54,924 bases of DNA from a virus. Both the position numbers and the translations under genes were made by a program. The first letter of the stretch is position 1. Every line of letters begins with the position of its first letter. The stretch covers positions 1 through 54,924 of the IMG/VR virus record IMGVR_UViG_3300042402_003477. One strand, 5' to 3'. The notes beneath the pieces were generated by a model. That model worked only from the letters and a program-made list of their open reading frames with translations. It ran no database searches and was not told the DNA's origin. Below are positions 2,052 to 2,468 of this stretch, one piece after another.

Positions 2052-2092
2052 AACTGTATCCGATTTTACAAAAGTATTCTTATAGATATAAC

Positions 2093-2149
2093 ACGTTCAT
2101 TTGCTATTCGCAAATAGCAAACGGAAGTAGGGAAACCGAAGGAACGCAC
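2093..2149 (+). promoter_or_regulatory. Glutamine-II (downstream-peptide) riboswitch
   Basis: The conserved elements appear in order. CGTTC at 2094-2098 pairs with GAACG at 2142-2146 (P1). A 9-bp hairpin, TTTGCTATT 2100-2108 with AATAGCAAA 2113-2121 and loop CGCA, forms P2. The motif CGGAAGTAGG starts at 2122, and CGG 2122-2124 can pair with CCG 2136-2138 as the pseudoknot. The 3' segment is CCGAAGGAACGCAC. From memory this is the glutamine-sensing class found in cyanobacteria and cyanophages, usually upstream of very short genes, which is also the case here. An AT-rich, promoter-like stretch with TATAGA at 2081-2086 would start transcription close to 2093. Confidence 0.88.
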
Positions 2150-2166
2150 TTTTACAATAGTAAAGG
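2149..2166 (+). promoter_or_regulatory. Hairpin covering the Shine-Dalgarno site
   Basis: CTTTTAC at 2149-2155 can pair with GTAAAGG at 2160-2166 (7 pairs, one G-U, loop AATA). The 3' arm contains most of the AAAGGAG ribosome binding site (2162-2168) of the gene starting at 2176. The hairpin directly follows the riboswitch core, so it is a plausible expression platform acting on translation. The role is inferred. Confidence 0.5.
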
Positions 2167-2175
2167 AGCACCCTA

Positions 2176-2334
2176 ATGTCTAAAGCAACTTATAGAGGAT
2201 GTCAGTATAATACTGATGTCCCAAAGGAAGAATATCGTAAGTGGTATTCACAAACACATTCACCAGCACATCCACAAAATACATATCGTGGAGTTTCTTA
2301 CCGTCCCTGTAATAATCAGGAGGTTGCAAAGTGA
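2176..2334 (+). CDS. Riboswitch-controlled DUF4278-like small protein
   Basis: A 52-residue protein with two copies of a Thr-Tyr-Arg-Gly-x-x-Tyr motif: TYRGCQY near the N-terminus and TYRGVSY near residues 36-42. This motif is typical of cyanobacterial DUF4278 proteins. The only leader is the glutamine-II riboswitch, so output should respond to intracellular glutamine, the host nitrogen signal. From memory, a cyanobacterial DUF4278 member (PirA) binds the PII protein and tunes arginine synthesis; a similar role here is inference. AAAGGAG sits 7 bases upstream. The final codons contain AGGAGG, the ribosome binding site of the next gene. Confidence 0.8.
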   Translation: MSKATYRGCQYNTDVPKEEYRKWYSQTHSPAHPQNTYRGVSYRPCNNQEVAK

Positions 2335-2432
2335 ATACTTATTTTGTTAGATATCTTAAGAATAAGGATAGAAAGGAAAAACTTCTTAAGATCGCACAAA
2401 TTAATATGGCAAAGCAACCTCAAGTTGCTTGA
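2331..2432 (+). CDS. 33-residue basic protein, GTG start
   Basis: The GTG start overlaps the previous stop (GTGA) and is preceded by a full AGGAGG at 2319-2324 with a 6-base gap, so translation is very likely. The protein is short, helical and basic (VRYLKNKDRKEKLLKIA) and ends just before an intrinsic terminator. It therefore shares the glutamine-riboswitch transcript with the DUF4278-like gene. I do not recognise a family. It is small enough to be missed by gene callers. Confidence 0.7.
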   Translation: MNTYFVRYLKNKDRKEKLLKIAQINMAKQPQVA

Positions 2433-2438
2433 TAATTC

Positions 2439-2468
2439 AGAGGGGGACTTGACTTCCCCTCTTTTTTT
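2439..2468 (+). terminator. Intrinsic terminator of the riboswitch operon
   Basis: AGAGGGG (2439-2445) pairs with CCCCTCT (2456-2462), followed by a T run (2462-2468). It lies 7 bases after the stop of the 33-residue gene and closes the riboswitch unit. Confidence 0.85.

Follow-up and report, generated by a model that had tools for sequence, protein, structure and literature searches.

A phage-borne type-1 glutamine riboswitch with two tiny genes: a candidate nitrogen-feedback cassette

Layout of the unit and class of its riboswitch

The window analysed here is the whole of a virus record, 54,924 bases in length (IMG/VR record IMGVR_UViG_3300042402_003477). A T4-like cyanomyovirus is indicated as its source by genes near the riboswitch unit (SpeD, ThyX, PhoH and DUF6433) and by matches of the window to phage records, which fall mostly on ThyX and cover at most 42% of the stretch. 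The unit itself runs from 2056 to 2468 and comprises an NtcA-type box, a glutamine riboswitch aptamer, a helix at the Shine-Dalgarno sequence, two small genes (A and B) and a terminator. Its features are:

2056-2069, plus strand: GTA-N8-TAC box (GTATCCGATTTTAC), putative NtcA-type operator, from its sequence and its recurrence in leaders
2081-2086, plus strand: putative -10 element TATAGA, proposed from its position
2092-2150, plus strand: type-1 (glnA, RF01739) glutamine riboswitch aptamer, cmscan 53.7 bits, gathering cut-off 35
2094-2098/2142-2146, plus strand: aptamer stem P1, from sequence
2100-2121, plus strand: aptamer stem P2, from sequence
2124 and 2147, plus strand: long-range pair G2124-C2147, placed by position
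2126-2129 and 2138-2140, plus strand: loop-E strands AGUA and GAA, from the cmscan alignment
2130-2137, plus strand: aptamer hairpin P3, GG-GAAA-CC, from the cmscan alignment
2149-2166, plus strand: helix C2149-C2155/G2160-G2166 pairing with the ribosome-binding site (predicted expression platform)
2163-2168, plus strand: Shine-Dalgarno sequence AAGGAG of gene A
2176-2334, plus strand: gene A, DUF4278-like protein of 52 aa containing two TYRG repeats (phrog_5049, 2.7e-9)
2331-2432, plus strand: gene B, basic 33-aa peptide with relatives among host peptides that follow type-2 glutamine riboswitches
2439-2462, plus strand: intrinsic terminator closing the unit, 9-bp stem with a T run

Both tiny genes called in a first-pass annotation of this DNA are present, at 2176-2334 and 2331-2432, and both are under purifying selection with pN/pS of about 0.2: 0.205 for gene A over 49 distinct 52-aa relatives and 0.225 for gene B over 25 distinct 33-aa relatives, each calculated against the window sequence and within one subtype. 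The terminator that had been placed at the end of the unit is likewise found at 2439-2462, with four terminator-like sites compared with 0.2 in shuffles, all four overlapping one hairpin. Outside the unit, 2653-2814 holds a 53-aa frame with a sub-threshold match to LemA (22.2 vs. 26.2 bits).

The aptamer is the sole Rfam match at the gathering threshold in the 54.9 kb window, a full-length match to RF01739 at 2092-2150 on the plus strand (cmscan, E = 4.5e-9). The RNA fold has a z-score of -3.07, and none of 200 shuffles was equally stable. The cmscan alignment shows the three-way junction with loop E (AGUA/GAA) and P3 that is expected of RF01739. The long-range pair, which according to PMC6698751 closes P1 in both classes of glutamine riboswitch (C19:G41 in class II and its equivalent in class I), is G-C in all 22 single aptamers of the loci fetched by protein similarity, described below.

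The first-pass annotation had assigned the element to the glutamine-II class, with a pseudoknot between 2122-2124 and 2136-2138. Its phage-borne glutamine riboswitch is real, and P1 and P2 lie where it had drawn them (2094-2098/2142-2146 and 2100-2121); the class and the pseudoknot fall away. The core letters CGUUCA...CG...GAACG are common to both classes and the downstream peptides resemble those behind host type-2 switches, as a glutamine-II (Downstream-peptide) riboswitch would have it. However, a covariance-model search with RF01704 gave no match at E ≤ 10 in 1900-2600 where RF01739 scores 53.7 bits, and the element contains the loop-E strands AGUA/GAA and the short GAAA-capped P3; since these are the features that distinguish the classes, we assign it to type 1. 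Glutamine-I riboswitches are described in PMC6698751 as loop-E three-way junctions without a pseudoknot, and the proposed pseudoknot clashes with the P3 hairpin at 2130-2137 and its loop-E strands. We give the glutamine-II reading almost no weight and classify the window element as a glutamine-I riboswitch, with ligand binding predicted.

Directly 3' of P1, as in cyanobacterial loci, the window has the helix predicted to sequester the Shine-Dalgarno sequence. Such helices average 6.05 pairs over 150 distinct tails, compared with 4.37 in simple shuffles, and 6.86 pairs in the 79 tails of the window's family. In host loci, most of the tails listed have a CGCCUC immediately after P1 that pairs with GAGGCG; phage and host helices differ in sequence and agree in place. 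In the predicted ligand-free fold of the window, G2141, G2142 and G2146 close the structure around the Shine-Dalgarno sequence; all three lie in or beside the 3' strand of P1, G2146 being its last base, and P1 should therefore compete with this closing structure. Because the host gifB switch is ON according to PMC6316151, we infer that the window switch is ON as well, high glutamine leading to translation. An OFF switch, in which ligand-bound P1 would stack on the helix and shut translation at high glutamine, is also allowed by the geometry, as the helix abuts P1 without overlap in many relatives (55 of 81 tails open with CTCTTTA). We nevertheless consider OFF unlikely, given that the host loci share the identical geometry with gifB being ON (PMC6316151) and that the window's extended helix takes G2146 from P1.

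The two small genes and their relatives in phages and hosts

As first noted, gene A carries two TYRGxxY motifs (TYRGCQY and TYRGVSY). Its likeness to DUF4278 holds as a resemblance, with matches to phrog_5049 and to Pfam PF14105 (E = 2.1e-4), and not as Pfam membership; we call it DUF4278-like because 22.0 bits is under the Pfam gathering cut-off of 25.3. YRG repeats stand behind a glutamine switch in the phage, and the same context is found in hosts. The AlphaFold2 model of the 52-aa protein was poor (mean pLDDT 57.5).

Relatives were fetched with the 52-aa protein without requiring a riboswitch: 103 stretches matched, 95 were confirmed and 80 were kept. The string GAAGGAACG lies shortly upstream in 76 of these 80 loci, L303-L305 carry one-base variants of it (by eye), and an aptamer precedes gene A in 79, the exception (L298) having just 6 nt of upstream DNA. 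With the named phages DSL-LC03, S-PM2 and S-SRM01 the set comes to 83 loci, comprising 22 single type-1 aptamers, 60 double leaders and one locus without upstream DNA. Gene B follows gene A in 81 of the 83 by eye (66 by regular expression alone); L307 is without gene B, and one single-aptamer locus is without any frame. In a riboswitch-first sample of at least 120 loci (119 IMG/VR loci plus the window), the first frames include, by pattern, at least 26 B peptides, at least 17 YRG proteins and at least 3 fusions, B being found also as the first gene directly behind the aptamer in viral loci. Because viral contigs overlap in origin, these counts are of contigs and not of independent events, and E-values obtained from small sequence sets are rough.

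Other tiny, mostly basic and mutually unrelated peptide families also lie behind type-1 aptamers in viral contigs: L001, L010 and L016 (W.xYCRK), L081 (MPQIGTEQ), L020 and L170 (MTKYQ/MTKYE...DNPFYP or DNPYYP) and L006 and L030 (RFTHLFK...ARKEV). Some of them occur in SAR86 and proteobacterial contigs too (L145, L170, L194, L213). In contigs of marine heterotrophs (L160, L176, L195, L215, L234), the type-1 aptamer precedes frames that read from sequence as ammonium transporter-, glutamine synthetase- and glutamate synthase-like.

Gene B starts at a GTG that overlaps the stop of gene A as GTGA, with AGGAGG at 2318-2323. A model of B gave 139 matches at E ≤ 0.001 among 50,753 distinct stop-to-stop frames of the fetched loci, and 11 phage frames of the 139 are fused to YRG repeats. 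The 33-aa product had been called undescribed, yet it has host relatives. Searched against 386 cyanobacterial genomes, the B profile matched in six at E ≤ 0.001, and all six host loci lie directly behind RF01704 (38 to 54.6 bits against a cut-off of 33). Searched against 121 genomes of the family to which one of the six hosts belongs, it matched in 24 at E ≤ 0.01. Among 19 further host B loci, RF01704 stands directly upstream above cut-off in 14, and no such score is reached in the other five (L479, L480, L484, L492, L494), which makes 20 of 25 host loci directly behind RF01704, the switch not having been used in finding them. The host consensus reads by eye as about MNxLxLIRxxxxKxxRLHxAQL. 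Run on all 19 host peptides, the phage B model scores 23.0 bits on average, with 99.9% of shuffles below 8.2, a score that is partly circular because the host peptides were found with the phage profile.

B is joined to YRG repeats in at least five host proteins (L442, L443, L478, L486, L487). In that host family, 76 of the 121 genomes contain RF01704, and 30 of its loci, among the matches listed, all precede a DUF4278-type YRG protein. Profile match and context place gene B with the host peptides that follow type-2 glutamine riboswitches. Both host peptide families lie behind RF01704, and the phage pairs them behind the other aptamer class, type 1. Yfr6 RNA has been described with a conserved 33-aa frame, its 5' part being the Downstream-peptide RNA (PMC1242208, PMC2518516, PMC2864571). 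Viral contigs L497-L499 match the type-2 glutamine pattern, and the L497 protein looks like a B-YRG fusion; by pattern, viral contigs number 3 for type 2 and at least 119 for type 1, the two patterns being of unequal strictness.

The candidate that gene B is an IF7 homologue was rejected twice, by shuffles and by hhalign. Two of 42 B sequences exceed the 95% shuffle level against IF7-like helices and 0 of 17 do so in the reverse direction; hhalign against the IF7 helix gives a probability of 0.6%, with no alignable helix. The inactivating factors IF7 and IF17 have three essential arginines. A search of solved structures with a host IF17-type protein found nothing convincing (best E 0.81). In cyanobacteria (L143, L146, L175 and the C-termini of L131, L139 and L232), the position of the IF7 helix behind DUF4278 is taken by a second helical domain, RRLQVAR..GDQ.LI..LE.E, or this domain is alone in the locus.

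Double leaders and genes inside their stems

In many relatives the leader has the order CGTTCA-P2a-ACGGAAGTA-AGCCGACT-C-GGAACG-GAT-CGTTCA-P2b-ACGCAAA-AGCCGACT-GAAGGAACG, with the loop-E strand AGUA in the first half and GAA in the second. Its two AGCCGACU segments can pair mutually, with two A-C mismatches. Among the 161 leaders listed, a count that leaves out 11 pattern matches without a second copy, compensated segment pairs include AGCCGACG/CGCCGACU in 31, CGCCGACU/AGCCGACG in 3, AGUCG/CGACU in 2 (a perfect match), AAACGAC/GUUGUUU in 1, and others; the segments do not pair in 2 leaders and pair partially in 2, all of which were kept in the count. L294-L296 have AGUCG opposite CGGCU.

Covariation was assessed on 33 leaders with a short P2b (32 of 60 distinct ones, picked for variety, plus S-PM2). 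Four of the eight pairs of the shared P3 are changed on both sides, and its covariation, 0.155, exceeds the 0.044 of shuffles (reached by 0 of 500) and the maximum of 0.030 obtained on sliding; A-C mismatches leave two positions without a pair in 30 of the 33. For the whole double structure covariation is 0.232 compared with 0.063 in shuffles (0 of 500), whereas its number of further pair types was reached by 42 of 500.

The long-range pair, placed by position in double leaders after PMC6698751, bears on how the two halves are arranged. In a nested reading it is Watson-Crick in 58 of 58 outer and 55 of 58 inner junctions of protein-fetched or named loci; two aptamers in series would have it in only 4 and 4 of the 58, and this arrangement was rejected. 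For the 107 pattern-fetched leaders listed, in which one of the four bases of the long-range pairs was set by the pattern, the counts were 107 and 98 nested against 2 and 3 serial, and over all 165 leaders listed 165 and 153 against 6 and 7. Because the pair favours nesting, the outer junction resembles a complete type-1 aptamer, and a circularly permuted second junction appears to sit inside its P3 and to share that stem; the inner junction is without loop E. Unaided, RNAalifold arrives at a nested outer P1 and inner hairpin, but replaces the shared P3 by a local CGG/CCG stem. We prefer the shared P3 because of its covariation, and the local stem may be an alternative state of the double leader. 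The double leaders of the three named phages S-PM2 (L122), DSL-LC03 (L121) and S-SRM01 (L123) all score under the Rfam cut-off of 35, the three scores being, in descending order, 34.2, 33.3 and 28.9 bits. That of S-PM2 lies around 142,320-142,420 of AJ630128. Shared-P3 double glutamine leaders are also seen in many of L251-L441.

Downstream of the 161 listed double leaders lie 149 YRG proteins, 7 B-like peptides and 1 other frame, with 4 off the contig. Long stems are frequent: P2a is long in 36 of the 161 and P2b in 92, both in 25 and at least one in 103. Small frames lie in them, in P2a of about 67 aa (MTKALLLLAWVPLLS...) and in P2b of about 50 aa (MEALILTCLQAQ...IDAKAD, phrog_504), a few of the latter, such as those of L352 and L420, looking spurious or cut. 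The P2b gene of DSL-LC03 has the inner aptamer strand as its last codons and a stop that overlaps the GAA strand, and gp017 of S-SRM01 is an annotated gene inside a P2 stem. P2a genes are found in L318, L333, L354 and others, and P2b genes in L121, L123, L260 and others; by eye, the pattern (T/S)C..A..L is common to the two families, as is another cysteine close to the end, and they may share an origin. A ribosome translating such an internal gene would unfold the sensor, coupling translation to glutamine sensing. We see an even chance that the double leader is an interlocked two-site sensor whose sites would bind glutamine cooperatively and whose P2-berthed genes would couple translation to sensing; on that reading the single aptamer of the window is the plain form of the family. 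Within the partial literature search made here, an interlocked double aptamer with genes in its stems would be a new riboswitch architecture.

Nitrogen control, candidate function and known systems

Of 24 distinct viral single-aptamer leaders that precede gene A, 22 have the GTA-N8-TAC box at most 120 nt upstream, compared with 3.9% in shuffles, which strengthens the previously suggested link to nitrogen control. As expected of an NtcA regulon, its place in these leaders is fixed: the spacing is identical in 19 of the 22 and one base further in 3, with the box centre 31 or 32 bases before the aptamer. The box is also present in all 12 viral leaders that have B as the first gene and in 112 of 122 double leaders; among host loci it is found in 23 of 25 with YRG proteins of the window form, in 12 of 16 whose YRG proteins are of other forms and in 15 of 71 of the remainder. 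It is rare before unrelated viral peptides (8 of 54) and was found in 0 of 18 leaders before other viral YRG proteins, and the shuffled leaders with a box range from 2.8 to 4.0% across sets.

If transcription starts at the aptamer, as expected from position (near 2092-2094), the box would be near -30, close to the NtcA site at -28.5 of a gifA promoter that is linked to repression (PMC6316151). Sequences similar to the putative TATAGA element (TATAGATA/TATACATA) occur in several relatives. In double leaders the box centre has several spacings, mostly 31-32, 51-55 or 63 bases upstream of the aptamer, which fit repression less well; many have the box 51-55 nt upstream, and in the examples shown a TTGACT/TATAAT promoter separates it from the aptamer. 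For 16 cyanophage genomes, NtcA sites have been reported by Sullivan et al., who interpreted them as promoters of phage functions (PMC3037559). A promoter scan found no plus-strand sigma-70 site from 1700 to the unit. By a looser score, a TTTACA-16-TATAAC promoter in the window reaches 10/12 and ends 1 base before P1; it is disfavoured because the RNA would start inside the aptamer. With this looser score, 15 of 96 distinct double leaders reach 11/12, as do none of the single YRG leaders listed.

The aptamer class, the box, the helix that hides the ribosome-binding site, the selection on both genes, the kinship of B with host peptides and the A/B fusions can all be read from the sequence, and we consider it probable that the unit at 2056-2468 is a phage-borne nitrogen-feedback cassette that reports high glutamine. 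NtcA is active at high 2-oxoglutarate and low nitrogen. When nitrogen is low, host NtcA would probably bind 2056-2069 near the -10 element and block the promoter. When nitrogen is plentiful, the RNA would be made with the type-1 aptamer as its first structure, and glutamine binding would probably stabilise P1 and free the ribosome-binding site, as in the host gifB switch. Two products, probably coupled, would then be made and report high glutamine: the DUF4278-like protein of gene A and the basic peptide of gene B, which is probably a helix. Host glutamine synthetase activity might be lowered as a result, as by IF17, and 2-oxoglutarate and ATP spared during infection.

That the unit is a captured host leader, functionless in the phage, is scarcely credible: leader, box and both genes are conserved across the 80 protein-fetched loci, and purifying selection and covariation also speak against it. 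Under the cassette reading, lowering host glutamine synthetase activity is the most likely single function, held tentatively and clearly short of an even chance. If true, damping of the enzyme by the phage would spare glutamate, ATP and 2-oxoglutarate, and the phage might be 'taking over nitrogen control', as the first-pass annotation proposed; of that interpretation the riboswitch, the DUF4278-like protein, the second gene and the nitrogen link survive and the glutamine-II class does not.

One form of this function would make A and B phage glutamine synthetase inactivating factors, a split IF17 in which A stabilises and B inhibits the enzyme. According to PMC6316151, DUF4278 is the N-terminal part of IF17, disposable for function, aiding stability and seeming to improve inactivation; since this part is called a disposable stabiliser, gene B might be the active part of the split inhibitor. 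Gene B is basic and probably helical, like IF7. The kind of switch and the NtcA-type box are shared with the gif genes, a YRG protein and a basic peptide occur split or fused, and in hosts IF7-like helices stand alone or behind DUF4278 under a type-1 switch. The review also suggests that picocyanobacterial DUF4278 proteins behind type-2 switches, such as PMM1846, might be IF-like (PMC6316151), and a small inhibitor taken over from the host has a precedent in cyanophage CP12 (PMC7760959). Against a split IF17 stand the lack of homology between B and IF7-like helices (2 of 42, 0 of 17; hhalign 0.6%) and the statement in the same review that these picocyanobacteria appear to lack full-length IF homologs (PMC6316151). 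We regard it as possible, though doubtful.

The products could instead act elsewhere in nitrogen or stress physiology (on PII, PipX, a protease or the ribosome), with only the switch in common with regulators of glutamine synthetase. Very different tiny peptides lie behind the type-1 aptamer in other viral and bacterial contigs, which suggests that the switch is a general 'nitrogen replete' signal, whereas DUF4278 is specifically tied to IF17. This is a serious possibility, not far below even.

A virus would here carry host nitrogen-feedback logic (box, switch, DUF4278-like protein and host-type peptide) in about 400 bases, a testable case of cyanophages reading and setting host nitrogen status. 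The finding also joins the host peptides of type-1 and type-2 switches. Phage glutamine aptamers (PMC9964418, PMC9004378), host switches followed by DUF4278 genes (PMC6316151) and glutamine switches in tandem (PMC9481103) are already in print; a literature search of partial coverage turned up neither the phage cassette nor B in phages, and neither shared-P3 double aptamers nor stem-borne genes.

Phage-borne riboswitches of the glnA kind are known from the S-CREM1 glnA RNA of a cyanophage (PMC9964418) and from the methylophage Melnitz (PMC9004378); DUF4278 is named in neither main text, and no peptide cassette or interlocked form was seen there. Two aptamers per leader have been described as tandem glutamine riboswitches (157 doublets and 4 triplets), presented as pseudo-cooperative doublets (PMC9481103), whereas here the second junction appears nested and shares the P3 of the first. 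A close host counterpart is gifB (IF17) of Synechocystis, which likewise has an RF01739-type aptamer with a DUF4278 protein behind it (Klahn et al. 2018, as cited in PMC6316151), and the host type-1 loci fetched here have, like the phage unit, a Shine-Dalgarno helix directly behind P1 and an NtcA-type box upstream. Unlike gifB, the phage unit is virus-borne and encodes tiny, split proteins, the second of them without likeness to IF7, and its helix has another sequence. Picocyanobacteria have type-2 glutamine riboswitches with downstream peptides, Yfr6 with its 33-aa frame included (PMC2864571, PMC1242208, PMC2518516), and both families of the phage, the YRG protein and the B peptide, are found behind switches of this type; unlike these loci, the phages use a type-1 aptamer and bring both peptides together in one operon, sometimes fused.
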